A stretch of DNA of 14,885 nt. It comes from Ruminococcaceae bacterium UBA5579. Its GTDB lineage: Bacteria; Bacillota; Clostridia; Oscillospirales; Ruminococcaceae. The position numbers and the translations under genes were made by a program. Within the stretch, counting starts at the first letter, position 1, and each line of letters opens with the position of its first letter. The notes under the pieces were generated by a model that saw only the letters and a list, made by a program, of their open reading frames with translations, had not been told where the DNA came from and made no database searches. Of the stretch, positions 2 to 14,691 are shown piece by piece. The stretch is from positions 1 to 14,885 of the forward strand of contig DILZ01000064.1 of NCBI GenBank assembly GCA_002425305.1. Direction: 5' to 3'.

Positions 2-139
2 ATAGTTGGTGCAAGCATTATCCGTGCTATTCAAATGATAATGAGTGTCACCAGTGACACATTTGTAGGATTAACCAAAACAAATAAGCTAAAATTGGTT
101 ATTCCTACGAAAGCAAAGAAATTAAGCAAAAAGGCTTGA
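2..139 (+). CDS. C-terminal end of an unidentified protein (partial, enters from the left edge)
   Basis: An open frame runs from the window edge to the TGA at 137-139 and gives 45 residues. It starts with a hydrophobic stretch (IVGASIIRAIQMIM) and ends in a very basic tail (TKAKKLSKKA). I do not recognise the family. The stop codon overlaps the -35 box of the next promoter, which is a natural end for an upstream gene. The first copy of the dispersed GTGTCAC-NN-GTGACAC palindrome (45-60) lies inside this frame and would encode SVTSDT. The stretch is AT-rich and short, so an open frame by chance cannot be excluded. No start codon can be assigned. Confidence 0.45.
   Translation: MVGASIIRAIQMIMSVTSDTFVGLTKTNKLKLVIPTKAKKLSKKA
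45..60. repeat. Dispersed 16-bp palindrome, copy 1
   Basis: GTGTCACCAGTGACAC has 7-bp perfect arms around a 2-bp centre (CA). It is one of five copies in the window (others at 4644, 5468, 10427 and 14676). Unlike the others it appears to lie inside a reading frame, and it is followed by ATTTG rather than AATTT. This argues for a protein-binding site rather than a terminator. Confidence 0.75.
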
Positions 140-164
140 CTTTATCACTTTAAAGTGATATAAT
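136..164 (+). promoter_or_regulatory. Sigma-A promoter with a palindromic operator in the spacer
   Basis: TTGACT (136-141) and TATAAT (159-164) are separated by exactly 17 bp, which is near-perfect sigma-A consensus. The spacer is almost filled by a perfect 16-bp palindrome, ATCACTTTAAAGTGAT (144-159), whose last base is the first base of the -10 box. A bound repressor would block RNA polymerase. The likely binder is one of the XRE-type proteins of this element, but the sequence does not say which. The promoter would drive the genes at 260, 738 and 1097, with an untranslated leader of about 90 nt. Confidence 0.85.
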
Positions 165-259
165 ACAATTGGAAACAGTTAGCATATAAAACTAATTGAA
201 GAAACACAGATTACAGAAAACGAAAAGTTTTCCGCAGCGAACAGAAAGAAGGTATTAAT

Positions 260-733
260 ATGACAAATTATATGGGAAAACGCCGTTTGCGGAGTATTCT
301 TCTGCAAATGCTGTCCGACCGTCCGGAATTGCAAGCGCAGTTCAAGGATGAGCACAGTTTTATGAAATACAAGTTCTACAACGGCTCGGAATGGCTTGAG
401 GTTCAGTTGGGAAGTTATCGCTTTGAGATATACGCGACAGGTGCGACCTGCAAGGCAGTTTCTTTCGAAGAATACCGTACCGACGAATACGGTGACATTA
501 TTTCGCAGCACAACCGCATTGTGACAAAATATAATGAAAATTTTGAGCCATTTCCTTTGGCTACTTGGTTTTCCGGCGGCTGTGATCTTCGGAAACAGGG
601 ATATTACCCGTTTCATATACCCGAACCGAACGATCCTTTTTTCAACTTTGACGAAGCTGCCGACTTAAATCCGGACTCATTTATCTGCCGTAACATAGCC
701 AAAAAGCAACAAAACGTTTTACAAGGAGGATAA
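260..733 (+). CDS. Hypothetical protein, 157 residues, first gene of the left operon
   Basis: I do not recognise this protein. The ATG at 260 has an AGAAGG ribosome binding site 7 nt upstream, so this start is well supported. The N-terminus is basic (MGKRRLRSILLQML). The middle is rich in aromatic residues and short beta-like stretches (KYKFYNGSEWLEVQLGSYRFEIYATG), and a proline/aromatic segment follows (PFPLATWFSGG, YYPFHIPEPNDPFFNF). No signal peptide, membrane span or catalytic motif is visible, which suggests a soluble alpha/beta protein. Its last codons contain the AAGGAGG that serves the next gene, so the two are translationally linked. It is the first gene behind the operator-containing promoter, so it probably belongs to the regulated early or maintenance genes. 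Confidence 0.8.
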   Translation: MTNYMGKRRLRSILLQMLSDRPELQAQFKDEHSFMKYKFYNGSEWLEVQLGSYRFEIYATGATCKAVSFEEYRTDEYGDIISQHNRIVTKYNENFEPFPLATWFSGGCDLRKQGYYPFHIPEPNDPFFNFDEAADLNPDSFICRNIAKKQQNVLQGG

Positions 734-737
734 CATT

Positions 738-1070
738 ATGGTTTCACTAAAAAAAGAACCGCAGATCCGCGAGATCACGCCGGTACATCTGATAGACGAG
801 GACGAGGCAATTCAGATATACTGTCCGCCGAGAGAAAGCACCGAAAACGACATAAAAATATCCGTCAAGCAAGCGGATAACGATCTTCTTCCTGCCGTCA
901 AGGATAAGGACGAACCACAGGAGCGTACTTTTGGCGGTCTGAACAAGTGGGAATGGGCGGAAATAATAATCAAATCGTTGCTGGTAATGGGCGGAATTGC
1001 GGTTATTGTGTTTCTGATAGCCGGATTTTTGGGCGAGGGGCTTACCCTTGCCAAAGACATAGCGATTTGA
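738..1070 (+). CDS. Small C-terminally anchored membrane protein, 110 residues
   Basis: The ATG at 738 follows AAGGAGG (723-729), located in the final codons of the preceding gene. Residues 1-70 are polar and charged and look cytoplasmic. Residues about 78-98 (SLLVMGGIAVIVFLIAGFLG) form one strong hydrophobic span, followed by a short tail (EGLTLAKDIAI). The segment before the span (GLNKWEWAEIIIK) looks like an amphipathic interfacial helix. No signal peptide is present, so the N-terminus is expected to stay inside. The function is unknown. A small tail-anchored protein in this position could be a membrane docking or regulatory partner of its neighbours. The reading frame and start are secure. 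Confidence 0.8.
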   Translation: MVSLKKEPQIREITPVHLIDEDEAIQIYCPPRESTENDIKISVKQADNDLLPAVKDKDEPQERTFGGLNKWEWAEIIIKSLLVMGGIAVIVFLIAGFLGEGLTLAKDIAI

Positions 1071-1096
1071 ATAAAAAGGAGGAAATCCGTTGAATT

Positions 1097-1741
1097 ATGG
1101 AAAACTCAACCGAAACTAAAACACCGCGGCGGATCAACGGCAGTGATTACCCTATTAACCTGCTTGATGCAATTGATGGCGACTGTTGGCAGCACGACAT
1201 TCCCTTTGATATAAACGGAACGATCGAGTATGTCAATCACACTTTTCTTTCAGCCCGTGAAGCGGACGTACTGCACCAACGTTTCTTTCACGGTAAAACC
1301 TGTTCCGAGATCGGGAAAATGAACGGAGTTACAGCGGAACGCGTCAGACAGATCGAGGCAAGAGCTTTGCGGAGACTAAGAGAACCTAAACATATCAATT
1401 ATTTAAGGCTCGGTATTGCCGGTGTTATAAGGTCATCTGTTAATGCTGCTGTTGAAAAAGCGTATTCCGGCGAGCTTGCGAAGACAATTGAAATGCTTGA
1501 AGGAGTTTGTGAAAATGTAAATCCGCTTGCCAAAGCCCGTAAGATAAATATTGTGGAACTTGGACTATCTACTCGAAGTTTTAATTGCTTGGGTCGGGCA
1601 GGAATGAAAACTCTTGGCGATGTTGAGAAGCTTACCACCAAGCAGCTTAAGCATATCCGCAACCTTGGCACACGGTGTTACAATGAAATCATTGAGGTAC
1701 TGAAAAAGCACGGCATTGAGCTGCGTGAAGATAATATATAG
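1097..1741 (+). CDS. Sigma-70 region 4 / RNA polymerase alpha-CTD fusion, probable transcription regulator
   Basis: The 214-residue protein joins two RNA-polymerase-type DNA-binding modules. Residues about 50-98 match sigma-70 region 4: LSAREADVLHQRFF, then a helix-turn-helix (TCSEIGKMNGVTAERVRQIE) and ARALRRLR. Residues about 150-211 match the alpha C-terminal domain: VELGLSTRSFNCLGRAGMKT and IRNLGTRCYNEIIEVLKKHG. Compared with E. coli alpha, R160, N163 and C164 fall at R265, N268 and C269, while G191, R193 and E197 fall at G296, K298 and E302. The UP-element-binding surface is therefore largely kept. Sigma region 2, needed for promoter melting, is absent, so this is not a full sigma factor. 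An activator or promoter-selective regulator is the inference. The AGGAGG (1077-1082) lies unusually far, 14 nt, from the ATG. Confidence 0.85.
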   Translation: MENSTETKTPRRINGSDYPINLLDAIDGDCWQHDIPFDINGTIEYVNHTFLSAREADVLHQRFFHGKTCSEIGKMNGVTAERVRQIEARALRRLREPKHINYLRLGIAGVIRSSVNAAVEKAYSGELAKTIEMLEGVCENVNPLAKARKINIVELGLSTRSFNCLGRAGMKTLGDVEKLTTKQLKHIRNLGTRCYNEIIEVLKKHGIELREDNI

Positions 1742-1960
1742 AGGGTCTGATGCAGCGTGACTATAATGGGCGTATCGCGTTTTTATCCGACGCGCCCCTA
1801 CATACGCGGCTTGACGGGTCACTCCCTGAATGCCGAGCCAACGGCAGCAATGCCGTAACGCGGAAAGGTCGCTCCTTTGGGCGGGATTAAGCCTTCTTCC
1901 CCGCCCTCCCCGCGTTTTACACTATATAAGAAGGCTGAATTTAAGGAAGAAGGTATTTTT
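1742..1960 (+). promoter_or_regulatory. Structured 5' leader of parA with possible anti-Shine-Dalgarno switch
   Basis: This 219-nt gap has no convincing gene but is full of potential stems. GGGCG 1768-1772 pairs with CGCCC 1793-1797, CGGC 1807-1810 with GCCG 1832-1835, ACGGC 1841-1845 with GCCGT 1852-1856, AAAGG 1864-1868 with CCTTT 1874-1878, and GGGCGGG 1879-1885 with CCCGCCC 1900-1906. The pyrimidine tract CCTTCTTCC (1892-1900) is a perfect complement of GGAAGAAGG (1945-1953), the parA ribosome binding site. It can alternatively pair, as GCCTTCTT (1891-1898), with AAGAAGGC (1928-1935), leaving the binding site free. That is the layout of a translational switch. The 1768-1835 part resembles the elements at 4734 and 5392. 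I found no clear promoter. Confidence 0.5.
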
Positions 1961-2704
1961 ATGAAATCAATAGCGTTTTACAACAACAAGGGCGGAGTGG
2001 GCAAGACTACAAGCGTAATAAACGTCGCGTATCAGCTCGCCGCCGACAAAAAAGTGCTTGTGATCGATATGGACGGTCAGAGCAACAGCTCGCGTTTCTT
2101 CGCGGACGAGCCTAAAGCGGGATTGGAGCAGGCGCTTACAAGGTCAATAGTAAATCCGGACGTTGCGCTGTGTCCTACCCGATACCCCAACATCGACGTG
2201 CTTACGGCAACTCCCGCGCTGAACGATATTGTATCGCTGTTCTACGCGCTGCCGGAGGATGCGCAGCGTGAAAACGTCGAGAAGCTGCTTTCGTTCAGCG
2301 ACAAGTATTATTACATATTGGTAGACCTTCCCCCCGCGCTCAACAAGATCACGGAACGCGTCATCAGCTCGTGCGATTATGTTTTCGTTCCGATAGAGTT
2401 AAGCTCGTTCGCGATACAAGGAATATCCACGGTAACGGACATAATTGCGGGTTGCGGCGCGAGGTTCGGCGGCTGTTTCGTTAATAAATTCGACCGCGAA
2501 AATCCGTCTGATATTCAGCTTATGGAAATGCTGAAAGCGTCGCTCGGTACAAAGGCGCTTAACAGCACTCTTCCTTTCAGCCGTGTGATCAAGAACTCCG
2601 TTTCTTATAAAGTTACCGCGCCCGAATATATGGGGTGGACGTTTGCGGCTGAATGTGTCGCGAACCTTGCGAAAGAGATCGCGGAGATCTGCGGAGGTGC
2701 ATAA
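1961..2704 (+). CDS. parA: ParA-family partition ATPase
   Basis: ParA-type deviant-Walker ATPase of 247 residues that would segregate the element together with the ParB-like protein downstream. Walker A is KGGVGKTT (residues 10-17) with the signature lysine K10. The A' motif is VIDMDGQSN (34-42), where the usual DxDPQ proline is replaced by glycine. Walker B is YILVDLPPAL (118-127). The C-terminal part has the usual CFVNKFDRE strand. There is no N-terminal helix-turn-helix, so this is a short (type Ib-like or Soj-like) ParA. I chose the ATG at 1961 because the protein then begins at the first strand (MKSIAFYNNKGG) and GGAAGAAGG lies 7 nt upstream; the open frame extends upstream without a usable start. 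Its stop overlaps the next ATG. Confidence 0.93.
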   Translation: MKSIAFYNNKGGVGKTTSVINVAYQLAADKKVLVIDMDGQSNSSRFFADEPKAGLEQALTRSIVNPDVALCPTRYPNIDVLTATPALNDIVSLFYALPEDAQRENVEKLLSFSDKYYYILVDLPPALNKITERVISSCDYVFVPIELSSFAIQGISTVTDIIAGCGARFGGCFVNKFDRENPSDIQLMEMLKASLGTKALNSTLPFSRVIKNSVSYKVTAPEYMGWTFAAECVANLAKEIAEICGGA

Positions 2705-3018
2705 TGAAATTCGGTAAACGTATTCGCGCGGTTCGCAAAAACGCGGGATACAGTCAGAAAGAGTTCGGCTCTCTGCTCGGAATACCGCAAGCTACGCTGT
2801 CCGCATACGAAACGGACAGAATGCAGCCTACCGTTTCCTCGCTGATCAGAATTGCGAAAAAATTCCACGTGTCGTTGGATTGGCTCTGCGGGATTAAAAA
2901 TCCCAAAAAGCCCGACGATACGAGCGCCGAGCTGAACGCCGTGTTGACCGAAGCCGAGCAATTCTTGAATGAATTTCTTCGGAAATTAGCAGAGGTAAGG
3001 GAGAGTGATGACAAGTGA
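2704..3018 (+). CDS. XRE-family helix-turn-helix regulator
   Basis: This 104-residue protein has an N-terminal Cro/CI-type helix-turn-helix (residues about 5-60: IRAVRKNAGYSQKEFGSLLG, then IPQATLSAYETDRMQPTVSS) and a helical C-terminal tail that may dimerise (ELNAVLTEAEQFLNEFLRKLAEV). Its ATG overlaps the parA stop (TAATG) and GGAGGTG sits just before it. Its own TGA overlaps the GTG start of the next gene. It is therefore locked into the par operon. A likely role is repression of the par operon or of the element's own promoters; the target site is not determined by the sequence. Confidence 0.9.
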   Translation: MKFGKRIRAVRKNAGYSQKEFGSLLGIPQATLSAYETDRMQPTVSSLIRIAKKFHVSLDWLCGIKNPKKPDDTSAELNAVLTEAEQFLNEFLRKLAEVRESDDK

Positions 3019-4631
3019 AATGGGACGGAAATCTTCTCGCAAATGTTGTAAAGGACGCACTTTATTCTCTGTTTGAGTTTGAAATTAAAAACGCTCACCA
3101 AATGGATAACAAGCAATATGCAGATCTGCTGAAGAATAAATACACCTATTCGGGAAAGTCCTTTAAAAACTGCTATGTCAGCACATTACTCTGCACAATA
3201 CCAAACGGAATAACAATAGATTTTTTGAAGCCTTTTCCAAAAGAGCTTGACGACGATCATACGATAGAAATATCGTGGAGTATGGCAGCGCGGCACATCA
3301 GAGCTTGGGAGCTTGAGAAGCGGCTGGAGGAAACAAATAAAAAAACAGTTCAGCAACAATGGGATGAAACTCACCTTTGCGGCGATTATTACGGCGAGCA
3401 TTGCGAGTATCTGGTGCAAGCAAAGGGCGATACCGTTCTGAACGGCAAACAGCTTGACAGTTGGTGTCCGTATTGCACGTCGGAAAATAAAGTACGCAAA
3501 ATCGGCAATGCGGGAATGTGGACGGGAATTTCCCCGAAATTCTGTCCAAAACGTAAGGCATTGGAAAATAAGGAGGCAAATATGGCGCGAAAATTACAGC
3601 TTGATGCTGCGATCACAAAGGATATGAAGTCCGCCGCGTCGGACAGCTTTGTGGACAGCATCAGAATGATAGATGTTTCGGAAATAATGCCGAACAAGGA
3701 AAACTTTTACGAGATAAGCTCTCTGGAGCTACTCGCCGACGATATAGAACGCGAGGGACTGAAGCACAATCTGGTCGTTTCAAAGGACAAGGACAGCGCG
3801 AAATACTGGCTTAAAAGCGGTCACAGACGTTTTGAGGCGGTAAAGCTACTGATCAAGGAAAAGCGGCTTGCAAGCACGAAAGTACCGTGCTTGGTGGACG
3901 GCGAGAAAACAAAAGCCGAAGCCAAATTAGATCTGATAATGCTTAACGCAACGCAGCGAAAATATACGGACGCGGAGGTTATGAGCGAGTACGAACAATT
4001 ATCCCAAACGCTAAAAGAGCTTGACAGCGAGGGTAAGGGTTTCAGTGGACGCGCAAGGGAAAATATCGCGAAAATACTTAACATCTCAAACGGACAAGTC
4101 GGCAAACTCGACAATATCAAGCACAATGCCGCCCCCGAAGTACAAAAGGCTGTCAAGACCGGCGAGATGAGCATTTCCACCGCGAACGAGGTCGCAAAAT
4201 TAGCTCCCGAAAAGCAAAAAGAGGTCATCGAGAAAAAGCCGGATATCTCGAGCGCGGAGGTAAAGAAAATGCAAGACAAGAAGCCCGCTGCGCCGCCAAA
4301 AACCAAGCCGGACGAAGCCCCGAAAAAGCTCCCCGAGCCGGAGGATGATGCCGAGAACTTTGACGAGGTGGACGATACCGACGATGATATATCCGAACGT
4401 TTCGAGTCTCTCAACGAAAAATTCCGCGATGATCTTGCCAAAGAAAAAGTCAAAGAAAATGAAGCGGAAAAGCACGTCACCTTTTCGCTCACGCTTTCGG
4501 ATAAAGAAGCAAAGGCACTGCTTGAAATCATCAACGAGCTTATTGATGATAACATAGCGTATGTGGACGAGGAAAAAACTGATGAACTTATTCCGATCCG
4601 AAGCGAGCTTCAGAGTTTTGTCGGAGAGTAA
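3015..4631 (+). CDS. parB: ParB-like partition protein with an extra Cys-rich N-terminal domain
   Basis: The 538-residue protein starts at GTG 3015, overlapping the previous stop. Residues 1-189 are not ParB: an unknown region followed by a probable zinc-binding part with C122, C130, CPYC 151-154 and FCPKR (C177). From M190 (MARKLQLDAAI) the sequence is ParB-like: a ParB/Srx N-domain with SGHRRFEA (268-275) matching the nucleotide-binding GxRRxxA box, a helix-turn-helix at about 344-370 (SGRARENIAKILNISNGQVG), a Pro/Lys/acidic linker (420-460) and a C-terminal part (485-538) that probably dimerises. It would bind centromere sites and stimulate ParA. AGGAGG lies 5 nt before the in-frame ATG for M190, so a 349-residue ParB alone may also be made. 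Confidence 0.88.
   Translation: MKWDGNLLANVVKDALYSLFEFEIKNAHQMDNKQYADLLKNKYTYSGKSFKNCYVSTLLCTIPNGITIDFLKPFPKELDDDHTIEISWSMAARHIRAWELEKRLEETNKKTVQQQWDETHLCGDYYGEHCEYLVQAKGDTVLNGKQLDSWCPYCTSENKVRKIGNAGMWTGISPKFCPKRKALENKEANMARKLQLDAAITKDMKSAASDSFVDSIRMIDVSEIMPNKENFYEISSLELLADDIEREGLKHNLVVSKDKDSAKYWLKSGHRRFEAVKLLIKEKRLASTKVPCLVDGEKTKAEAKLDLIMLNATQRKYTDAEVMSEYEQLSQTLKELDSEGKGFSGRARENIAKILNISNGQVGKLDNIKHNAAPEVQKAVKTGEMSISTANEVAKLAPEKQKEVIEKKPDISSAEVKKMQDKKPAAPPKTKPDEAPKKLPEPEDDAENFDEVDDTDDDISERFESLNEKFRDDLAKEKVKENEAEKHVTFSLTLSDKEAKALLEIINELIDDNIAYVDEEKTDELIPIRSELQSFVGE
3571..3584 (+). promoter_or_regulatory. Internal Shine-Dalgarno and in-frame ATG inside the parB-like gene
   Basis: AGGAGG (3571-3576) is followed after 5 nt by ATG (3582-3584), in frame with the GTG at 3015 (189 codons apart). 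This is the strongest ribosome binding site in the gene and stands exactly where the ParB homology begins. Initiation here would yield a conventional 349-residue ParB. Confidence 0.75.
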
Positions 4632-4642
4632 TAACAGTTTGA

Positions 4643-4660
4643 TGTGTCACCAGTGACACA
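4643..4660. repeat. Dispersed palindrome, copy 2
   Basis: The core GTGTCACCAGTGACAC (4644-4659) has arms extended to 8 bp by the flanking T and A, and is followed by ATTTTT. It lies 12 nt after the parB-like stop codon and before a separate terminator-like hairpin. Its position next to parB fits a centromere-type site, although the following T-run also gives it a terminator-like look. Confidence 0.8.
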
Positions 4661-4677
4661 ATTTTTAAATGCGTAAA

Positions 4678-4717
4678 ACGTCCGGCTTTGCTTTGGCAGA
4701 GCCGGGCGTGTTTATAT
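4678..4717 (+). terminator. Probable intrinsic terminator of the par operon
   Basis: CCGGCT (4682-4687) pairs with AGCCGG (4700-4705), extended by ACG/CGT outside one mismatch. The hairpin spans 4678-4709 and is followed by a T/A-rich run (GTTTATATATA). The T-run is interrupted, so efficiency is uncertain. Confidence 0.55.
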
Positions 4718-4733
4718 ATACTCCTTCTGTTAA

Positions 4734-4839
4734 GCGCGGCGGGTTAGTGGCATTTCCCGCCGCGCCAATATGCGGCAAACGGGGCAACTCCCCGTGAGCT
4801 GCTCCAAATCACGTTAAAACGCGATCGGCTTTTCTTTTT
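4734..4839 (+). ncRNA. Structured repeat element, copy B (candidate RNA)
   Basis: A perfect 10-bp stem, GCGCGGCGGG (4734-4743) with CCCGCCGCGC (4756-4765), closes a 12-nt loop TTAGTGGCATTT. It is followed by a second hairpin, ACGGGG (4779-4784) with CCCCGT (4790-4795), which is enclosed by a further stem GCGGC (4772-4776) with GCTGC (4798-4802). A weaker hairpin (4808-4825) and TTTTCTTTTT (4830-4839) could end a discrete transcript. The copy at 5392 keeps the loop exactly and keeps the stems by wobble and compensatory changes. I cannot assign it to a named RNA family. It lies in the 342-nt space between the parB-like gene and the zinc-knuckle gene. Confidence 0.5.
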
Positions 4840-4859
4840 CGGATTTGAAAACTGATTAT

Positions 4860-4885
4860 GAAAAGCAAAAACAGCGACAAATTGA
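4860..4885. repeat. 26-bp direct repeat, left copy
   Basis: This 26-bp segment beginning GAAAAGCAA and ending GCGACAAATTGA recurs at 5315-5340 with two mismatches, in the same orientation. The two copies flank the zinc-knuckle gene at 4974-5309. Confidence 0.8.
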
Positions 4886-4973
4886 GGAAAAAACTCAACA
4901 TTGTGGCGTTCTTGAGGAGAAAAAGGCAGAGAACACATCTGAAAACAAAACATAGTAATGAAAGGAAAAACCG

Positions 4974-5309
4974 ATGGGAATAAATTATAAATGCTGTTTT
5001 TGCAGAAAAGATTATGAATGGTATGAAGGATTGTATGAAAATCCGAATTACAACGCAGATGAAGCGAGAAAGGCACGGCGGCAAGGAGAAGAATACAAGG
5101 AAGAAACCGGTACGTATGTTAGAGCAAACGGTTTAACATTATGCCTTATTGAGCCGATAAACGACAGCATTGACGCAAAAGAACCTATTTCCGTAACAAA
5201 TTTAGATAGTAATCTTGCCGTGTATCTGAACGTTTGTCAAGATTGTATGAGAAAAATTCTTGATAATCTTTACCCCGATGGCAATAAAGCCAATGCTTGG
5301 AATTATTGA
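4974..5309 (+). CDS. Small zinc-knuckle protein of unknown function, 111 residues
   Basis: The ATG at 4974 has AAAGGAAA upstream (4961-4968). The protein opens with KCCFC (C7, C8, C10) and has a second pair, CQDC (C88 and C91), near the end. Two CxxC pairs separated by about 80 residues can form one zinc ribbon. The middle is charged (ARKARRQGEEYKEE) and then has beta-like segments (TYVRANGLTLCLIEP). No catalytic motif or membrane span is visible. The gene stands alone between two copies of a structured repeat and between two 26-bp direct repeats, so it may have been acquired or duplicated as a module. A DNA/RNA- or protein-binding role is only an inference from the zinc pairs. Confidence 0.75.
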   Translation: MGINYKCCFCRKDYEWYEGLYENPNYNADEARKARRQGEEYKEETGTYVRANGLTLCLIEPINDSIDAKEPISVTNLDSNLAVYLNVCQDCMRKILDNLYPDGNKANAWNY

Positions 5310-5314
5310 CGCAA

Positions 5315-5340
5315 GAAAAGCAACGACAGCGACAAATTGA
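5315..5340. repeat. 26-bp direct repeat, right copy
   Basis: This copy matches 4860-4885 at 24 of 26 positions. It begins 5 nt after the stop of the zinc-knuckle gene. Confidence 0.8.
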
Positions 5341-5391
5341 AAGCATTGAGTAACTACGCTGAAAGGCGTGACTATAAATGCTCCTGTCAAT

Positions 5392-5461
5392 GCGCGGCGG
5401 GTTAGTGGCATTTCCTGTCGCGCCGAAATGCGGAATTCGGGGTAAACGTCCCGAAGAACGC
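5392..5461 (+). ncRNA. Structured repeat element, copy C (candidate RNA)
   Basis: GCGCGGCGGG (5392-5401) pairs with CCTGTCGCGC (5414-5423) around the identical 12-nt loop TTAGTGGCATTT. The two differences from copy B (C to T) turn G-C pairs into G-U pairs, so the stem is kept in RNA. The second hairpin is TTCGGG (5436-5441) with CCCGAA (5450-5455). Its base differs from copy B (ACGGGG/CCCCGT) on both strands, which is a compensatory change. A short enclosing stem GCG (5430-5432) with CGC (5459-5461) is also possible. The element ends just before palindrome copy 3 and the XRE gene at 5526. The 216-nt space 5310-5525 otherwise holds only the 26-bp repeat and the palindrome. Confidence 0.5.
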
Positions 5462-5467
5462 GCCAAA

Positions 5468-5483
5468 GTGTCACCCGTGACAC
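5468..5483. repeat. Dispersed palindrome, copy 3
   Basis: GTGTCACCCGTGACAC has perfect 7-bp arms with centre CC and is followed by AATTC. It lies between structured element copy C and the XRE gene, about 40 nt before that gene's start. Confidence 0.8.
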
Positions 5484-5525
5484 AATTCAAAACGCAAAAT
5501 GAACACCGAAGAAAGGCGGAGAAAA

Positions 5526-5977: not shown

Positions 5978-6015
5978 TTGACATTTCCTACAATATGTTG
6001 TATAATATAAGTAGG
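5978..6015 (+). promoter_or_regulatory. Consensus sigma-A promoter with nested inverted repeats
   Basis: TTGACA (5978-5983) and TATAAT (6001-6006) are separated by 17 bp, a perfect sigma-A promoter. An inverted repeat TACAA-4-TTGTA (5989-5993 and 5998-6002) spans the spacer and enters the -10 box. A second pair, CCTAC (5987-5991) and GTAGG (6011-6015), brackets the -10 region. It would drive the small gene at 6045 and, by readthrough, the zeta kinase. The design parallels the promoter at 136-164, but the operator sequence differs. Confidence 0.88.
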
Positions 6016-6374: not shown

Positions 6375-7523
6375 ATGGACGGTTTTGAAAAAGAAAACAG
6401 ACCGATACACAAGCTCACTCAAGAGCCCGTTTCGGAAGAATTTTTGAACGTTCTGGCGCGTCTGCGAACGGGCGAGGAAGTTCCGGAGGCTGAAATTAAA
6501 GCGCTCCCCGAGATTAATTTCGCGAACGCTTGTATTTCAAAGGTTGTTCCGACCATTGAAATAGAGGGGCGCAAAATAATACAAGAAAACGTGTATAACC
6601 GACTTCAGAAAATGGGCAGCGCTGTCACAAAGAGCGACGGAACGGTGGAACTTAGCGGAGAGGTGCGCTGCGACAAGCGTCTGGATATAGTCATAGGCTT
6701 GCCCGCTGCAGGAAAATCCTCGGCGGTTGCCGAGCCCATTTCGGAGTTGTTCAAATCGAGGATAATCGATTGTGATGAAGCAAAGAAAATGCTCCCCGGC
6801 TTTGACGGCGGTTGGGGTGCACAAGCGGTACATTTGGAAAGTCAATCAATTTCTGATCGACAACTGGAAGCTGCACTTGAAAAAGGTGAAAATATCACAT
6901 ATCCACGCGTTGGAGCAGGCTATGAAGCGATGGCAAGAGTTGTTAAAATGGCTAAGCAAAAGGGCTACAAGGTGTACGTCCATTACAATGAGCTTGACAG
7001 AAACAAAGCGCTCGGGCGAATGCTCGAGCGTTTTCTGACGACAGGACGCTATCTCAAGCCCGAGCTTATCACTGGGGTCGGCGACAACATTGGCGAGACC
7101 TACAAGCAGTTGAAGAAAAGCGGTCTTATAGACGGCTTTACGAAGTGGAACAACGACGTACCGTTCGGTGAGCGTCCCAAAGCGATTGAACACAGCGCGT
7201 CCTGTACTGACGTGTACGAGGCACTGCGCGAAAAAAAACCGGAGACGATAAAGGAAAAAGCCGAGCTGCACGACGCTGTTATTGATAAGCTCACCGAGAG
7301 GATAGACAAGCTTGAGGCGGAGCTTGCAAAGGTCACGGCGGATCGGGATATTTATCTGGCAAAGCTCAAGGAGGTGGATCGAGTGTTCAAACAACTTCCA
7401 CCCGAATTGGGGAATAGGTACGTCCGGAAGCGCACCGAACTGCGAGAGGCGGATAAACGTTCGCATCCCACGATTGGCAAAGCGGATCTCAAACCGCCCA
7501 AGCCGAAAAATCCTAAGCATTGA
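6375..7523 (+). CDS. Zeta-toxin family kinase (P-loop)
   Basis: The 382-residue protein has an N-terminal helical region of about 100 residues, then a zeta/P-loop kinase core. Strand and Walker A are LDIVIGLPAAGKSS (103-116), followed by IIDCDEAKKMLPGF (130-143, with the acidic residues expected at the catalytic base), a helix-strand unit ending YKVYVHYN (198-205), and an Arg-bearing lid region LERFLTTGRY (217-226). Zeta kinases phosphorylate UDP-N-acetylglucosamine and poison cell-wall synthesis, and the fold also occurs in non-toxic kinases. Residues about 292-340 form a coiled coil and the tail is basic and Pro/Lys-rich (PPKPKNPKH), so it is longer than the compact plasmid zeta toxin. GGAAAGGAAA precedes the ATG. 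A role in element stabilisation is inferred. Confidence 0.85.
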   Translation: MDGFEKENRPIHKLTQEPVSEEFLNVLARLRTGEEVPEAEIKALPEINFANACISKVVPTIEIEGRKIIQENVYNRLQKMGSAVTKSDGTVELSGEVRCDKRLDIVIGLPAAGKSSAVAEPISELFKSRIIDCDEAKKMLPGFDGGWGAQAVHLESQSISDRQLEAALEKGENITYPRVGAGYEAMARVVKMAKQKGYKVYVHYNELDRNKALGRMLERFLTTGRYLKPELITGVGDNIGETYKQLKKSGLIDGFTKWNNDVPFGERPKAIEHSASCTDVYEALREKKPETIKEKAELHDAVIDKLTERIDKLEAELAKVTADRDIYLAKLKEVDRVFKQLPPELGNRYVRKRTELREADKRSHPTIGKADLKPPKPKNPKH

Positions 7524-8814: not shown

Positions 8815-8822
8815 GAGGAAAA

Positions 8823-9167
8823 ATGAAAATTTCATTTTATGAACGTTTTATCGAGCTTTGCAAGCTTAACGGGATAAAGCCTACACCCGCGCTGAAGGAT
8901 ATAGGATTAAGCGCGGGAAATTTGCCCAAATGGCAAAGGGCGGAGGCTACGATCACGATAGACACGCTTGAAAAAATTGCCGGATATTTTGGAGTTTCGC
9001 CTACATATTTTTTCGATGAGGATACCCGCGACACGGAAAAAGCCAAAGCCGAGTTGGAGGATTTGATACTGAGCGAAATCTCGGACATTCAGACTCTTGC
9101 AGCACAATGTGAAAAAAATCTTAATCGGCTTGAAAAACTTTATAGCGATTTGCGGAAAGCGAGGTGA
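8823..9167 (+). CDS. XRE-family helix-turn-helix protein, 114 residues
   Basis: AGGAGGAAAA directly precedes the ATG at 8823, eight bases after the initiator stop. Residues about 5-65 are a Cro/CI-type domain (YERFIELCKLNGIKPTPALK, DIGLSAGNLPKWQRAEATIT, DTLEKIAGYFGVSPTYFF). Residues 70-114 form a long amphipathic helix (KAKAELEDLILSEISDIQTL, then EKNLNRLEKLYSDLRKAR), probably a dimerising coiled coil. The gene is coupled to the initiator, so it may control copy number or the following genes. It is the third XRE protein in the window and is not closely similar to the other two outside the fold. Confidence 0.88.
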   Translation: MKISFYERFIELCKLNGIKPTPALKDIGLSAGNLPKWQRAEATITIDTLEKIAGYFGVSPTYFFDEDTRDTEKAKAELEDLILSEISDIQTLAAQCEKNLNRLEKLYSDLRKAR

Positions 9168-9173
9168 ACGCCG

Positions 9174-9458
9174 ATGAACGCAACAGTCGACAATTTCAGA
9201 TTGCGGGCAAAGGTCGCGGAACTTGAGCGCAAGCTGAAAAAAGCAAGTAACGTGATAGAAAAACAAAACCAAATGCTCGAATTTTCCCGGAGAGAAGCGG
9301 ACAACTGCAAGAAAACCATCGATTACGGCAAAAAGCAGCGGGAATTATCCGAGCTGCAGGCGCGGCTCGACGAGAAAACAGCGGCTTTGGCGGCGGAATA
9401 CAAGCTGCTGCTTGAGGATTGGTCAAAAGAGAACGAGGAAAAGGAGGAATTGGAATGA
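9174..9458 (+). CDS. Coiled-coil protein, 94 residues
   Basis: The ATG at 9174 follows GAGGTG (9161-9166) and is 6 nt after the previous stop. The protein is almost entirely heptad-like and charged (RLRAKVAELERKLKKASNVI, then QRELSELQARLDEKTAALAA), with no hydrophobic span or catalytic motif. It ends in an acidic tail (SKENEEKEELE). Its stop overlaps the next ATG (ATGA), and the AAGGAGG for the next gene lies in its last codons. The function is unknown; a structural or adaptor role for a neighbouring protein is possible. Confidence 0.75.
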   Translation: MNATVDNFRLRAKVAELERKLKKASNVIEKQNQMLEFSRREADNCKKTIDYGKKQRELSELQARLDEKTAALAAEYKLLLEDWSKENEEKEELE

Positions 9459-9664
9459 ACCTGGATCTCGAGCGAAGACCTCTCTCGCCGCCCTGCGAAA
9501 ACAGCGCGTGCTTCGGATGTCTGGACGGCAAATGCGCCGTTCTTACAGACAATCGTTTCAAAAAACGCTGTCCGTTTTTTAAAACTCGCGAGCAGAAGCA
9601 TCAAAAGGAGCAGGCTTGCAAAATACGCATAAGGTTATTGGAACAGGGGTGGAAAAATGGATAG
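9455..9664 (+). CDS. Small Cys-rich protein, 69 residues (first of a pair)
   Basis: The ATG at 9455 overlaps the previous stop and AAGGAGG (9441-9447) lies 7 nt upstream, so I chose this start over an in-frame ATG at 9419. Six cysteines (C14, C19, C22, C27, C39, C55), in the pattern PCENSACFGCLDGKC then RCPFFKTREQ, suggest one zinc-binding module. A basic helix (KTREQKHQKEQACKIRIRLL) follows. The function is unknown. The next gene starts 8 nt before this one ends, also encodes 69 residues and is also Cys-rich. Confidence 0.75.
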   Translation: MNLDLERRPLSPPCENSACFGCLDGKCAVLTDNRFKKRCPFFKTREQKHQKEQACKIRIRLLEQGWKNG

Positions 9665-9866
9665 GATAGAACGCAAGGCACGGGAGCTTATGCGTGTACG
9701 GGAGAACCGAGTCTGTGACACTTGCAAAAATAACTCCGCTGTGGGCTGTGAGGTAACTCCCGACAGGTACTCCTGCGTTTATAACGATTACGAGCTTTGG
9801 AAACCAAGCCCGGACGCATTTTGCGAGCTTGCTGAGCGCGTTCTTGCGGAGGGTCGGTATGCTTAG
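9657..9866 (+). CDS. Small Cys-rich protein, 69 residues (second of a pair)
   Basis: The ATG at 9657 overlaps the end of the preceding gene by 8 nt; GGAACAGGGG (9640-9649) can serve as the ribosome binding site. Cysteines C20, C23, C31 and C40 (VCDTCKNNSAVGCEVTPDRY, then SC) form a likely zinc site, with C56 further on. A basic N-terminal helix (RIERKARELMRVRE) precedes them. The end overlaps the start of the nuclease gene by 8 nt, so the chain 9455-10425 is tightly coupled. The function is unknown. Confidence 0.75.
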   Translation: MDRIERKARELMRVRENRVCDTCKNNSAVGCEVTPDRYSCVYNDYELWKPSPDAFCELAERVLAEGRYA

Positions 9867-10425
9867 AAAACTGACGGTTATAATTGCAACAGCGCTGCTT
9901 TTTTCAGCGTGTTCGACGCGGTATCATTCGGACGTTCCGGACAACTCGTCCTTGCTGATCTCCGAGAATAATTCCGAAAATTCGGATTTTCTTTCAACGT
10001 TGACAAAGTGTGAGTTGATCCGCGTTAAAGACGGCGATACCTACGTTCTGAACGTCGACGGCGTGGAAACGACGGTGCGGCTGATCGGCGTGGATACGCC
10101 GGAAAGCGTCGCGCCGTCCGAATACTCGAAAGAAAATACCGACGAGGGCAGATCGGTTTCCGAGATCGTCAAGCAAAAAATAAAATCCGGTGATACTCTT
10201 TACATCGAATATGACGTTTCAAGAACGGATAAATACGGCAGAACGCTTGCGTATTTGTATTTTGAGGACGGAGAAATGGTGCAGGAATGGCTGCTCGAGA
10301 ACGGATACGCGCAGATAATGACTATTCAGCCTGACAGCAAATACGCGGATATATTCGCGGAAGTGCAGCACGGGGCGGCTGAAAACAAAGTCGGTCTTTG
10401 GGACGGCTTTTTTAACGTCGAATAA
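9859..10425 (+). CDS. Staphylococcal-nuclease-like lipoprotein
   Basis: This 188-residue protein begins with a lipoprotein signal: MLRKLTVIIATALLFSAC, with lipobox F15-S16-A17-C18, so it should be anchored outside the cytoplasmic membrane. The Ser/Asn-rich linker 19-48 is followed by a thermonuclease domain (50-186). Residues corresponding to the S. aureus nuclease active site are present: D60 (KDGDT), R74, D79 and E82 (VRLIGVDTPE), and R128 (DKYGR). The enzyme is therefore expected to be an active calcium-dependent DNA/RNA endonuclease. GGAGGG precedes the ATG at 9859; an in-frame ATG at 9829 would spoil the signal peptide. Surface nucleases recur in Gram-positive conjugative elements. Its role there is not settled. 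Confidence 0.9.
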   Translation: MLRKLTVIIATALLFSACSTRYHSDVPDNSSLLISENNSENSDFLSTLTKCELIRVKDGDTYVLNVDGVETTVRLIGVDTPESVAPSEYSKENTDEGRSVSEIVKQKIKSGDTLYIEYDVSRTDKYGRTLAYLYFEDGEMVQEWLLENGYAQIMTIQPDSKYADIFAEVQHGAAENKVGLWDGFFNVE

Positions 10426-10443
10426 TGTGTCACCGGTGACACA
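10426..10443. repeat. Dispersed palindrome, copy 4 (perfect)
   Basis: The 16-bp core GTGTCACCGGTGACAC (10427-10442) is a perfect palindrome, extended to 18 bp by the flanking T and A and followed by ATTTC. It begins on the base right after the nuclease stop codon and is followed by a separate, stronger terminator hairpin. Confidence 0.85.
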
Positions 10444-10453
10444 ATTTCAATTT

Positions 10454-10492
10454 GCGGCAAGTTAGAATTTTAATTCACTTGCCGCTTTTTTT
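10454..10492 (+). terminator. Intrinsic terminator after the nuclease gene
   Basis: GCGGCAAGT (10454-10462) pairs with ACTTGCCGC (10477-10485), with inner pairing GAATT/AATTC, and is followed by TTTTTTT (10486-10492). It separates the replication/nuclease genes from the transfer genes. I could not identify a promoter for the transfer genes downstream. Confidence 0.85.
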
Positions 10493-10511
10493 GTTTCAGA
10501 AAGGAGTTTTT

Positions 10512-12392
10512 ATGGAAGAAGCGGTACAAATGGTGGGAACTGCGGCGCGGACGGGCGTAGAAGTAACGGCGGAGCTGCTGAAAATTCTCGCGCCTGCGCT
10601 CGCGAAGGGCGGAATAAAGCTTCTGGGAGCGGGAGGCAAGCTGTTGGGTTTCGGCATCGACAAGGCGGCGGACGCGATAGCCTTCTCCAACGCGGAGGGA
10701 ACGGTTTCCCGAAAGCATTTATTCGCGGAAGCCGCAAGGGCGGAAACCTCCGTTCTTTCCACCGACAGCTTTCCCACGGAGGCTGTGGAAAGAATGACGG
10801 AAATGGCGAAGGAATACAAGATCCCTATATCCGTGAACGGCGAGGGCGCTAGTCGTTCCATCAGCTATCTGGAGCGGGATAAGGACGTACTGGCGCAGAT
10901 AATGCAGGACTGGCAGGCAGAACGTTTAGCGCCGAGAGCGGATCGGCAGGGCGTGACCGCGTTTGTTGTGAACGATCAAAGAAATCTCGGCGCTATAAAA
11001 TCGCAGTTCGAGCAGAGCGGCGTGGAATGTTGGTTTACGCAAAATCAAAACGGGGAGATCCGTTGCAATTTCAAGTCCGAGGACTTGGAAAAAGCGAAGA
11101 TCGTTTCGGAAAATTTCAAGAAAACGCAGGGCGAGATTGCGGAGCATTGTAATATTGCGGCTAATATCCCCGAGAACGCCCGACAAGCAGATTTGCGTAT
11201 GCAGATAGAGCAGCTTGAAAACGCCGTACCAAGCGCTGAAACCTACAACAATATTCTTGCGGATATGGAAAAAAGCGGCGTGGAATTTCCCAAATATAGC
11301 GAAAATAATATGCGGATCATCAAGCGTGAAATGCCGGACGCGAAACAAATCGCAGGAAAAGCCTTTTGGGAACAGCAAGGCTATAAGCTGAACGAGAACG
11401 CAAAGGGCGTTGAAATAGTCGCGCCGCAAATGGACGATAACGGAAATCCCGTTCTTGACGAAAACGGCAAGCAGACCTTTACCACAACGACCGTTTACGA
11501 TATTTCCGAAACAAACGCATACGAAAAAACCGTGCAGCCGAAAATTGACGAACTGAGAGCGGAATATGACGCGGAAAAAGCAAAAGCTTTCGCGGCGGCG
11601 GAAAACAAGACCGTTACCGTATCAAATGAAACAAACGGCAAAAGCGTTGAAATAAACGTTGACAGCAAACTTCGCAGATCGGACGTTGAGGATATTCTGC
11701 GCGAGGAGCTGGGTTATTCTTCCGTTCAGGCGGAGCTTGCCGCTAACAAATTTGGCGCGGAGCTTGGACTTTCGGATAAATTTTACACCGATCATACACA
11801 GGCGGAAAATCTTGACAAAATACAAGTCAATATACGCTACAGTTCGGATGACATAACCATTCGGGATATTTCTTTTTCGGCGGTGAAGCTTTCAGACGGT
11901 GAGAACGTCCGTTTGAACATTGCAAACGGCGATAACAGCGTTCTGATCGTTCCTGCCGATATGTCCGACGAGGAACTGAAAACGGTGTTTAAGGAGCAGC
12001 TCGGAATGTCGGAGATCCAAGCGGAAAAGGCAGTTGAAAAATCCCGCAGGATAGATACGCAGATACAGAGTAAGCTGCGCGAAACGGTCTACGACCGCGA
12101 CGAAACGCAGCGCACGGTGAATATTGAGCGCACGTCTCAGACTTCGTTCGTGGTAACGACGGGAGAAAAAAATAAGGTGTACGATTTTAGCCAGATCGAT
12201 CTTGAAAAAAAGATCGCGGAGGATTTCGGAATTCCCGCGCAAAACGCGCACAACATCGTTCAAAAAGCTAAAAACCAAAGCGTCGTTCAAAATAAAATAC
12301 GCGCCAACGCCGAAAAGAAACGTAAGTCCGACAAGCTTAAAAACGATCCGCTCAAAGCGCGGGATACAGGCGCAAGGAAGGTGAAACGATGA
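10512..12392 (+). CDS. DUF3801 (PcfB-like) protein fused to an ArdC-N-like domain and a repeat tail
   Basis: I start this at ATG 10512, with AAAGGAG (10500-10506) before it; upstream in-frame codons run through the terminator. Of 626 residues, 1-137 resemble PcfB/DUF3801: a Gly/Ala-rich helical start (LLKILAPALAKGGIKLLGAG), then TDSFPTEAVERMTEMAKEYK and IPISV. Residues 275-338 resemble the ssDNA-binding N-domain of ArdC: AKQIAGKAFWEQQGYKLNEN, AKGVEIVAP, then TTTTVYDISETNAY. Residues 366-588 hold three copies of a strand-strand-helix unit ending DILREELGYSSVQAELAANK, TVFKEQLGMSEIQAEKAVEK and KIAEDFGIPAQNAHNIVQKA. The tail is very basic. PcfB-type proteins link relaxosome and coupling protein; the stop overlaps the virD4 start, which fits that role. 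Confidence 0.8.
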   Translation: MEEAVQMVGTAARTGVEVTAELLKILAPALAKGGIKLLGAGGKLLGFGIDKAADAIAFSNAEGTVSRKHLFAEAARAETSVLSTDSFPTEAVERMTEMAKEYKIPISVNGEGASRSISYLERDKDVLAQIMQDWQAERLAPRADRQGVTAFVVNDQRNLGAIKSQFEQSGVECWFTQNQNGEIRCNFKSEDLEKAKIVSENFKKTQGEIAEHCNIAANIPENARQADLRMQIEQLENAVPSAETYNNILADMEKSGVEFPKYSENNMRIIKREMPDAKQIAGKAFWEQQGYKLNENAKGVEIVAPQMDDNGNPVLDENGKQTFTTTTVYDISETNAYEKTVQPKIDELRAEYDAEKAKAFAAAENKTVTVSNETNGKSVEINVDSKLRRSDVEDILREELGYSSVQAELAANKFGAELGLSDKFYTDHTQAENLDKIQVNIRYSSDDITIRDISFSAVKLSDGENVRLNIANGDNSVLIVPADMSDEELKTVFKEQLGMSEIQAEKAVEKSRRIDTQIQSKLRETVYDRDETQRTVNIERTSQTSFVVTTGEKNKVYDFSQIDLEKKIAEDFGIPAQNAHNIVQKAKNQSVVQNKIRANAEKKRKSDKLKNDPLKARDTGARKVKR

Positions 12393-14674
12393 ACAGAAAG
12401 AAAAAGCCCGACGCGCTTACGATCGCGATATACGCGGTGATCGTGATCGCGATCTTGTACGTCGCGGCTGGGCTTGGCGCGGCGCTTGATCTGTCGAAGG
12501 ACGAAGACGGAAAAATTGAGTTTTCGGATCTGGGGAGCAAGCTTGAGGGTACGCTCACGGATACGGGAACGGTGTTCTCGATGCTCACCGACACAAAGAG
12601 TACAGCGTTTCAGCTTACATTTTTCGCGGCGGGTGGAATAGGAATTTACGCGCTGATGAAATACACAAGCCGAAAGCGCTTACACCGTAAAGGCGTGGAA
12701 CACGGCTCGGCAAGATGGGCGACGGAAAAGGAAGAAAAGAAGCTTGCCGACGCGGATAAAAAGGGAAAGCTCGTAAAACCGACGATGATAAAGAGCGCGG
12801 ACAAAAAGCACGAGTTTATGACGGATAATAATATCCTGTTAACTCAAGAGGTGCATATGTCGCTTAATACGCGGCAGCACCGAGAAAACCTCAACGTGCT
12901 TGTAATCGGCGGCTCGGGCTCCGGTAAATCCCGCTTCTATGTTAAGCCGAATTTAATGCAGATTAATACGTCATACGTCGTGACCGACCCTAAAGGCGAG
13001 CTGCTGCGCTCCTGCGGTTGGCTGCTCAAAAACGCCGGATACGAGATACGCGTTTTCAATCTCATAGATATGAGCCATTCAAACAATTATAATCCGTTTA
13101 ATTACGTTTATGATCGCGACGGAAACGTCAATAAATCCTACGTTCTTAAAATGGTGAATTGCTTGATGAAAAACACAAAACAGGAGGGCGCAAGCGGCGG
13201 AGATCAGTTCTGGGACGACAGCACGAAAGCGCTTACGCTCGCTATTTCGTTCTACTTATTGGAGTGCGCGGAGGACGAAATTTCTGAAGCGAAAAGCGAA
13301 TATGAAAGGCAACAGAAGATCCTTGAGGAAAAGCAAAAAAAGAATTACGCGTCCGAGGATATTGAAATGCAAAAGGAGATCACGGATGACGCGAAAATCA
13401 CGCTTGAAAGCGTAACGGAGAAAGCGCGTTCCGACTGTAATTTCTGCCGCGTAATGGAGGTTATGAAAATGGCGGAAATATCCGAGCAGGACGATACTCT
13501 TGAGTCTCCGCTTGACGAGCTGATGAACGAACACAGACAGCAGCATCCCAACAGTATGGCGTGGATATATTACGCGGATTTCAAGAAAGCTCCCGCCGAA
13601 ACGGCGAAATCAATACTCATTTCGGCGGCGGTAAGATTTGCGGCGTTCGAGCTGCCCGAGGTCGCCGATCTGACGCACTGCGACAACATACATCTGGACA
13701 CGATGGGCGATAAGAAAACGGCTTTGTTCGTTATAATACCGTCCTCGGACGCGACTTTTAATTTCTTGGCGGCAATGATGTACACGCAGCTTTTCGATAC
13801 GCTCTACGATGCGGCGAATTTCAAATACGGCGGTCGCTTGCCTGTTCACGTTCGCTGTCTGCTCGATGAATTTGCTAACATTGGAACAATACCCGATTTT
13901 GACAAGCTCCTTGCAACTATGCGAAGTATGGAGATCAGCGCGAACATCATTATTCAGAACTTGGCGCAATTAAAGAAAATGTACGATAAGTCTTGGGAGA
14001 TTGTCACGGGTAACTGCGACAGTCTCCTTTTTTTAGGCGGTCAAGAGGCAAGCACATTGGAGGCTATCTCCAAATCGTTGGGTAAGGAAACGATAGACGT
14101 TGTTTCGCAAAACCGAACGCGAAGCCATAAATCTCCTTCAACGTCCGAAAACAACAGTATTATGGGACGCGAGCTGATGACACCGGACGAGCTTAAGGTT
14201 ATGAAGCCGAACGAGTGCGTCTTGATAGTCCGCGCATTATATCCGTTTTTCTGTCACAAATTCGATATCGAAAAGCACTTGAATTACAAATTTCTTGAGG
14301 ACAGCAACAAGAAACTGGCGTATCTTATCGACGATCTTCACACGCTGAAAGCTCCCGAGAAAAAGGAGGATGATGAGGATTACACGGAGACAATAGGCGC
14401 TTCCGCCGATGATGAAGAACCGATGACCGATCTGGATTTTCCGGACGATCCGGATGAAGAAACCGAGGTGACAAATTTGAATAAGGAATTTTCGACTCCC
14501 TCGAAAAACGAAGAGAGCTATGCGGCGCAGGTGTACAAAAAGGAGACGTTTGAATTTGGAGACGCGTCGCCGGACGACAAGCCGTATTTTGACGAGAAAT
14601 CGGATGCGCTGACCGATGCGGATATTCAAGCGTTCCAAGCCTCGCAGGATGAAGGCGATTTATACGATTACTGA
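12389..14674 (+). CDS. virD4: VirD4/TraG-family type IV coupling protein
   Basis: The 761-residue ATPase starts with ATG overlapping the previous stop (ATGA). Two hydrophobic spans (about 9-31 and 72-90) anchor it in the membrane. Walker A is GGSGSGKS (174-181), followed by YVVTDPKGELLRSCG (196-210). Walker B is VRCLLDEFANIGTIPDF (488-504), and GNCDSLLFLGGQEASTLEAI (541-560) is the conserved VirD4 motif. A charged helical insertion (about 296-350) lies in the region of the all-alpha domain that contacts substrates. The C-terminal 100 residues form a long acidic tail (DDEEPMTDLDFPDDPDEE), a common place for substrate docking. It pumps the relaxase-DNA complex into the secretion channel. Confidence 0.95.
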   Translation: MNRKKKPDALTIAIYAVIVIAILYVAAGLGAALDLSKDEDGKIEFSDLGSKLEGTLTDTGTVFSMLTDTKSTAFQLTFFAAGGIGIYALMKYTSRKRLHRKGVEHGSARWATEKEEKKLADADKKGKLVKPTMIKSADKKHEFMTDNNILLTQEVHMSLNTRQHRENLNVLVIGGSGSGKSRFYVKPNLMQINTSYVVTDPKGELLRSCGWLLKNAGYEIRVFNLIDMSHSNNYNPFNYVYDRDGNVNKSYVLKMVNCLMKNTKQEGASGGDQFWDDSTKALTLAISFYLLECAEDEISEAKSEYERQQKILEEKQKKNYASEDIEMQKEITDDAKITLESVTEKARSDCNFCRVMEVMKMAEISEQDDTLESPLDELMNEHRQQHPNSMAWIYYADFKKAPAETAKSILISAAVRFAAFELPEVADLTHCDNIHLDTMGDKKTALFVIIPSSDATFNFLAAMMYTQLFDTLYDAANFKYGGRLPVHVRCLLDEFANIGTIPDFDKLLATMRSMEISANIIIQNLAQLKKMYDKSWEIVTGNCDSLLFLGGQEASTLEAISKSLGKETIDVVSQNRTRSHKSPSTSENNSIMGRELMTPDELKVMKPNECVLIVRALYPFFCHKFDIEKHLNYKFLEDSNKKLAYLIDDLHTLKAPEKKEDDEDYTETIGASADDEEPMTDLDFPDDPDEETEVTNLNKEFSTPSKNEESYAAQVYKKETFEFGDASPDDKPYFDEKSDALTDADIQAFQASQDEGDLYDY

Positions 14675-14675
14675 C

Positions 14676-14691
14676 GTGTCACCCGTGGCAC
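14676..14691. repeat. Dispersed palindrome, copy 5 (degenerate)
   Basis: GTGTCACCCGTGGCAC differs from the others by one base in the right arm (GTGGCAC) and is followed by AATTTTT. It begins two bases after the virD4 stop codon. Confidence 0.75.

Follow-up and report, generated by a model that had tools for sequence, protein, structure and literature searches.

The 14,885-bp window analysed here, which makes up most of the 15,185-base contig C50 in an assembly of Ruminococcaceae bacterium UBA5579 (G000; 2.34 Mb, 144 contigs, 76% complete), appears to belong to a conjugative element and carries five dispersed GTGTCAC palindromes. We consider it likely, as the best explanation overall, that the ParB protein encoded by the element binds at these palindromes, which very probably represent one of several classes of matched ParB proteins and sites among CD1110-type elements of Clostridia. 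An initial annotation of the window had proposed ParB as the binder, and sequence comparison supports this proposal along five lines: the restriction of the palindromes to contigs of the element; the presence of sites with the same layout and different letters beside ParB relatives; the ranking of one such motif, GTGCTA-N4, in loci outside its derivation set; a probable natural recombinant that separates ParB from ParA and from the small helix-turn-helix protein XRE1; and the position of the ParB residue that covaries most closely with the site class.

The palindromes are restricted to element contigs

Scanning the window with the pattern GTGTCACNNGTGACAC returns four exact copies and one with a single mismatch (Table 1), at the coordinates and with the 2-bp centres given by the initial annotation; shuffled sequences contain a mean of 0.21 copies and none of 200 reaches five. 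No additional match is present in the window at up to three mismatches. The C and G that flank the 2-bp centre are constant in 5/5 window copies, which permits an alternative reading, GTGTCA-N4-TGACAC, whose half-site centres are separated by 10 bp. The canonical parS TGTTTCACGTGAAACA has no match in the window at up to three mismatches and, as plasmid ParB sites vary, this absence bars only a site of the chromosomal type.

In the source genome, all 12 exact copies fall on four contigs (five on C18, one on C31, four on C50 and two on C83) and none on the other 140, an outcome that agrees with the excess over the chromosome expected in the initial annotation; once one-mismatch copies are added, these four contigs hold 14 copies in 45.9 kb. 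A profile search of the four contigs identified a VirB4 of the CD1110 family (NF045971, 6.5e-267), a topoisomerase III and a weak MobV relaxase match under its cut-off, and by eye we recognised a single-strand-binding protein, a large helicase-like protein and, on C83, a serine-recombinase-like protein. The window itself encodes a VirD4-like coupling protein, which marks the element as conjugative. We infer that C18, C31, C50 and C83 are pieces of one conjugative element, though they are unjoined in the assembly. CD1110-type conjugation elements are, we assume, kin of Tn1549. The latter is a vancomycin-resistance transposon (PMC5512222).

Among 396 genomes of the family, the exact pattern occurs in five (G000, 12 copies; G393, nine; G229, five; G096 and G311, one each), and the reversed-pattern control gave a single match in each of four genomes; an order-level sample of 295 genomes yielded matches in two, G000 and G509. 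G229 and G393 lack a relative of the window ParB at 1e-5, yet another parAB is present in each. In G229 a site lies just 3' of the parB stop, and in G393 sites lie 16 bp and about 125 bp before the probable parA ATG. The G393 ParB scores above the Pfam cut-offs for both ParB_N and HTH_ParB, and that of G229 passes the HTH_ParB cut-off and falls 0.2 bits short of ParB_N. Thus both further multi-site elements, which were found without recourse to ParB, have sites at their parAB operon. A search with GTGCTAYNNRTAGCAC matched 4/396 family genomes (G333, 17; G180, 15; G371, two; G337, one). Per genome, GTGTCAC and GTGCTA counts are 12 versus 0 in G000, and 0 versus 15 and 0 versus 17 in G180 and G333, which belong to the same genus. 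Use of the sites in trans by a second element was considered for contigs C11 of G180 and C42 of G333, which have sites and no ParB match, and was rejected; both carry relaxase, primase and SNF2-like genes and are therefore read as more pieces of the same kind of element.

Site classes change with ParB

Relatives of the window ParB at E ≤ 1e-30 occur in 13 of the 396 family genomes and in 7 of 391 class genomes. We collected 24 loci with a relative of this ParB, 23 from genomes and one from viral contigs, in which palindromes were sought without a template. The window-class motif recurs in L042 and L052. Another class, GTGCTA-N4-TAGCAC (GTGCTACATATAGCAC), has exact copies in L049 (nine), L050 (eight), L051 (six), L055 (three) and L064 (three). 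GTTGCCA-N4-TGGCAAC is present in five copies in L065, with the same class in L045 and L048, and GTTGATA-N4-TATCAAC occurs in L059 and also in G019; G295 has one GTTGACA site, the last two genomes coming from a whole-genome search. All classes share a 16-18-bp layout with a 4-bp centre. A palindrome with GTGACA in L063 was not counted, since by eye it has a longer stem and then six T, like an intrinsic terminator.

The GTGCTA-N4 motif was derived from L049, L050, L051 and L064 and counted in the remaining 19 genome loci (252 kb), nine of which contain exact copies; it ranks first of 4096 arms, the runner-up being found in three loci, and as some of the matches were known before the count, the ranking serves as a control. 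Further support comes from L052 and L055, which are contigs from the same metagenome assembly. Their ParA proteins are 98.8% and XRE1 proteins 91% identical, while their ParB proteins share 64%. The ParB of L052 groups with the window clade (Shimodaira-Hasegawa-like approximate likelihood ratio test, SH-aLRT, 99 in a quick tree), and three of its four sites, one of them with a mismatch, belong to the window class. The comparison supports L052/L055 as a natural recombinant in which ParB would have been separated from ParA and XRE1.

Site class changes six times on the tree of ParB (21 rows, without the fragment L064; 0/200 shuffles as low) and seven times on the ParA tree (19 rows; 8/200 shuffles as low), the minimum possible being four on each; the class labels rest on exact matches, with one exact site each in L046, L048, L053, L057, L060, L061 and G295, and, for L058, on three one-mismatch sites together with a single exact one found in a wider stretch. 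Taken with the L052/L055 pair, the trees lead us to set aside ParA and XRE1 and leave the VirD4 block unseparated from ParB.

Several of the palindromes have features of their own. Four of those in L065 (5736-5870) sit in 39-bp tandem repeats within the 3' part of parB, where translation turns them into repeats of the protein, and GTGCTA sites in L098 (8182-11109) and L100 (867-2641) share a T-rich run followed by CAGTCTTGA or a similar sequence, as if a unit were repeated between genes. In more remote elements, the 17-bp palindromes GTGTCCGAATCGGACAC and GTGTACGATTCGTACAC, just 5' of parB at L088 1306 (G899) and G954 19852, may represent additional ParB site classes. A site-like look is also shared by long palindromes in the vicinity of parB in G899, G954 and G1016, and by palindromes that recur in G953.

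The covarying ParB residue aligns with a known specificity position

The window ParB has 648 homologues in a database search, and its AlphaFold2 model adopts the ParB/Noc/KorB fold with a CTPase domain and a helix-turn-helix. G80, R82, R83, N122, Q125 and R126 are invariant across 33 aligned ParB rows, and we take them to form the nucleotide-binding boxes GxRR and N..QR. The KorB domain PF08535 is absent from the matches of the window ParB at E ≤ 1 and weak (0.01) in the G229 and G393 proteins. Among the matches listed from plasmid and phage collections, the ParB relatives are all distant (28-39% identity).

The comparison covered 228 ParB columns in 18 rows of three classes, excluding L064 and the small classes d and e. 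Residue 170 is the column most tied to site class, being N in 3/3 GTGTCA, P, S or A in 12/12 GTGCTA and K or T in 3/3 TTGCCA rows; as the rows are related by descent, this rank is not a probability. An ungapped hand alignment pairs NISNGQV with GVSRKTI of the G393 ParB, which had in turn been aligned to a Myxococcus ParB; it places residue 170 opposite R173 of Caulobacter ParB. R173 makes contact with parS and belongs to a set of four residues that jointly switch preference to the site of Noc (PMC7383237). By this hand alignment, the top covarying residue would be a known ParB/Noc specificity position.

Two observations concern the N-terminal side of the protein. The parB frame is preceded at 3015-3581 by a cysteine-bearing stretch of 189 codons in frame with it, with an apparent ribosome-binding site at 3571-3576, and in the homologue P0020 a window-type ParB is fused to a different N-terminal part that resembles that of G229.

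Weighing ParB against other readings of the sites

Several observations weigh against ParB as the binder. Ten of the 13 ParB-positive genomes of the family sample contain neither main motif (G019 and G295 have further classes), and since either motif occurs in only 3/13, further classes exist or some elements lack sites. Five of the 24 loci (L043, L044, L056, L062 and L063), three of them only 3-7 kb long, have no accepted site, and L058 has only one-mismatch sites within its 20.7 kb. When sites with one mismatch are also counted, 8/19 loci still have none within 40 bp of either the parB stop or the start of ParA. L052 retains one GTGCTA site of the L055 class, 16 bp 5' of the shared parA, L054 has a one-mismatch GTGTCA site next to two GTGCTA sites, and L052 and L055 stem from a metagenome bin that is possibly mixed. 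The half-sites stand 2 bp wider apart than in chromosomal parS, and the window ParB scores 16.9 bits against PF02195 (ParB_N), under the Pfam cut-off of 26.3; a protein database assigns PF02195 to P0001, a longer reading of the same protein. The VirD4 tree, finally, accounts for the classes with four changes (15 rows; 0/200 shuffles as low), the minimum possible, and so fits them as well as the ParB tree does. This last result would suit a reading in which a different protein of the ParB-linked downstream block, such as a relaxosome accessory protein, recognises the sites and ParB merely travels along. We regard this as the least probable of the alternatives: L065 has five sites, yet only parA and parB of nine window genes, six of them DNA-binding candidates, have a match there; parA or parB adjoins the sites in many loci; and the ParB column that covaries best with site class coincides with a known specificity position.

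The same comparison bears on the other DNA-binding proteins of the window. A tblastn search (1e-10) of 18 site-bearing loci found ParB in 18, ParA in 15, HTH36 in nine, XRE1 in seven (six strong), the sigma4-alphaCTD protein in five, g7537 in two and g260, XRE2 and XRE3 in one each, although five of these loci are shorter than 11 kb and some absences may reflect lack of sequence; the 18/18 for ParB reflects selection and counts as a further caution, as the loci of the set were found through ParB. XRE1, XRE2, XRE3, the sigma4-alphaCTD protein and the HTH_36 protein were set aside as binders on absence or mismatch. The initial annotation had offered an operator for one of the XRE proteins as its alternative, which would make the sites a scattered regulon like that of a phage repressor. 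A spacing of 10 bp between half-site centres does suit XRE-type dimers, and sites are denser per kb in loci with a close XRE1 (P 0.006, seven versus 11 loci of at least 10 kb; L064, a piece that starts inside parB, left out; indicative only, as the loci are related). Nevertheless, the alternative finds no support and we consider it improbable: the recognition helix of XRE1 (IPQ[SA]TLSAYE) is nearly unchanged between GTGTCA and GTGCTA loci, XRE1 is common to L052 and L055 when most of their sites are not, XRE proteins find no match in many of the site-bearing loci, and both window promoters matching at least 11/12 consensus positions bear other palindromes that may be XRE operators.

We rate slightly lower still the idea that the sites work at the RNA level, as short hairpins that either terminate transcription or exert an effect directly ahead of ribosome-binding sites. 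Copies 2, 4 and 5 pass a loose terminator scan, which also tells against ParB, and by eye a Shine-Dalgarno-like stretch follows many GTGCTA sites within a few bases. The predicted hairpins are weak, at -5.5 to -5.6 kcal/mol for the 16-mers and -7.9 for copy 2 plus flanks, and in the window class it is the stem letters that are constant and the loop that varies. The uneven GTGCTA centre occurs in both orientations (CATA/TATG 8/1 in L049, 6/2 in L050, 4/2 in L051 and 3/0 in L055), and 14/61 exact sites lie within open frames, as does copy 1, which the initial annotation had placed in a probable coding frame and which falls in an open frame at 2-139. Two more of its observations on context were confirmed: a single base parts copies 4 and 5 from the preceding stop codons, and downstream of both copy 2 and copy 4 lies a separate hairpin that is stronger. 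Hairpins acting as RNA would, moreover, not predict covariation with ParB.

Placement of the sites, promoters and neighbouring genes

Across 14 stretches, 47 of 61 exact sites lie outside open reading frames of at least 100 aa, compared with 13% of positions, on crude gene calls. Exact sites begin 4-14 bp after the parB stop in the window, L042, L057, L060 and L061, and 16-23 bp before the ParA match in L049, L050, L051 and L055; L046 (over the parB stop) and L058 have one-mismatch sites near parAB. Sites are thereby close to parAB in 11/19 loci, nine by exact and two by one-mismatch sites.

The palindrome TATCACTTTAAAGTGATA at the first window promoter (Table 1) is a candidate second operator. 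Contig C83 of the same genome shows the same layout, with a one-mismatch site at 1476, an interval of 86 bp and a promoter at 1578 bearing the palindrome TAGCACTTTAAAGTGCTA, and L042 has an imperfect version (site 5762, 76 bp, promoter 5854). Among 11 places in G000 within two mismatches of GCACTTTAAAGTGC, the unbroken core CACTTTAAAGTG occurs only at the window 136 and C83:1578 promoters; the reversed control gave 13 places. A site 75-86 bp upstream of a promoter was not seen as such in L049-L052, and a scan of the strong promoters of L049-L052 and L055 did not reveal this palindrome. In L051 (53-2870, equal to G333:C2), several near-identical perfect sigma-70 promoters lie in tandem about 110-330 bp apart on both strands.

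Among the neighbouring genes, the one pairing sigma-70 region 4 with an RNA polymerase alpha C-terminal domain (sigma4-alphaCTD) has a domain combination that we judge unusual, with matches in L049-L052 and a partial one in L060. The stretch 6375-7523 encodes a Zeta-toxin-like kinase domain (PF06414, 1e-11), also present in L042, L052 and L058.

Table 1 Palindromic sites, promoters and selected genes of the window
Feature	Position	Strand	Sequence or profile match	Remarks
Site 1	45-60		GTGTCACCAGTGACAC	Exact; -35 of strong promoter 75 bp downstream
Site 2	4644-4659		GTGTCACCAGTGACAC	Exact; parB stop 12 bases before
Site 3	5468-5483		GTGTCACCCGTGACAC	Exact; just 5' of XRE2 gene (5499), 494 bp upstream of 12/12 promoter (5978)
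Site 4	10427-10442		GTGTCACCGGTGACAC	Exact; 1 base after stop codon, 5' of gene at 10512
Site 5	14676-14691		GTGTCACCCGTGGCAC	One mismatch; 1 base after VirD4 stop
Sigma-70-type promoter	136..164	+	TTGACT-17-TATAAT	11/12; 18-bp palindrome TATCACTTTAAAGTGATA (143-160) over spacer and -10
Perfect promoter	5978..6006	+	TTGACA-17-TATAAT	12/12; spacer palindrome TACAATATGTTGTA, by eye
Sigma-70 region 4 + RNA polymerase alpha C-terminal domain protein	1097..1741	+	PF04545 1.7e-16, PF03118 3.5e-19	
parA, Walker ATPase	1961..2704	+	PF13614 1.2e-32 (1961-2701)	
XRE1, small helix-turn-helix protein	2704..3018	+	PF01381 2.9e-16	Between parA and parB
parB, 349 aa	3582..4631	+		Putative site binder; in-frame 189-codon 5' extension from 3015
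VirD4-like coupling protein, CD1115 family	12389..14674	+	NF045973 1.1e-145	486 bits, cut-off 250

Discussion

In order to rationalise these observations on the molecular level, we propose that a ParB dimer would read the two GTGTCA half-sites, whose centres lie one helical turn apart, through its helix-turn-helix, and the covariation suggests that residue 170, at the start of the recognition helix, helps to set specificity. Judging by its fold and conserved motifs, ParB probably loads at the site with CTP and slides or stays on flanking DNA. Since the sites lie beside parAB and at gene junctions along about 46 kb of element contigs, ParB may have two jobs: together with ParA it would retain the element in the cell while this is excised or replicating, and it would set the transcription of transfer genes in the manner of KorB. 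The restriction to element contigs, the covariation of site and ParB and the placement of the sites are the parts of this mechanism that comparison bears out. The scatter over the element and the promoter layout point to KorB-like regulation at least as much as to a centromere role. On the basis of placement, the promoter layout resembling that of RK2 and the higher site density with a close XRE1, we prefer a picture in which ParB loads at many sites, regulation accompanies or outweighs partition, and XRE1 is possibly a KorA-like partner.

ParB-site systems, KorB and BisD are already known kinds. KorB and KorA of RK2 offer a ParB-family protein of a conjugative element with a 16-bp operator, distal operators, a small DNA-binding partner and a second operator beside the core promoter; the distal operator OB lies 45 bp to more than 1,000 bp upstream of promoters and OA adjoins the core promoter (PMC11790492). 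By comparison, the sites here have other letters, the element is an integrative one of Clostridia without a KorB-domain match, and XRE1 and the second operator CACTTTAAAGTG are candidates only. Chromosomal ParB-parS and Noc with its binding site NBS share with our system the fold, a palindromic site whose half-sites have TCAC/GTGA in common and, by hand alignment, the specificity position at which covariation was seen (PMC7383237), whereas the sites here are scattered over the element and the window has no canonical parS within three mismatches. ICEclc, too, is an integrative conjugative element with a ParB-like clamp, BisD, for which control of gene expression has been reported, but ICEclc belongs to Pseudomonas and BisD is reported to activate (PMC12704722). 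SGI1 is an integrating element with parS-like ParB sites that are used by the IncC plasmid ParB, and so relies on a helper's protein, whereas the elements described here each encode their own ParB (PMC10954446). In the open-licence literature, covered mainly through titles and abstracts, we found no description of scattered ParB sites with class switching in such elements.

A bolder proposal, which we put forward tentatively and think possible rather than probable, is that CD1110-type elements of Clostridia contain a Gram-positive counterpart of KorA/KorB, in which ParB clamps would load at at least 12 scattered sites, slide, and stall via XRE1 at promoters with a second palindrome, silencing the transfer genes together, and in which ParB-site pairs would have split into mutually blind classes, like incompatibility groups. 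If such classes are indeed mutually blind, two such elements could share one cell. Elements with conjugation machinery of this kind are common in gut Clostridia and, to our knowledge, little is known of how their transfer genes are controlled and their excised form is maintained. Scattered ParB sites with readable classes would, if confirmed, provide a direct handle on both, as well as a natural series for the evolution of ParB specificity and a means to predict which elements can share a cell.

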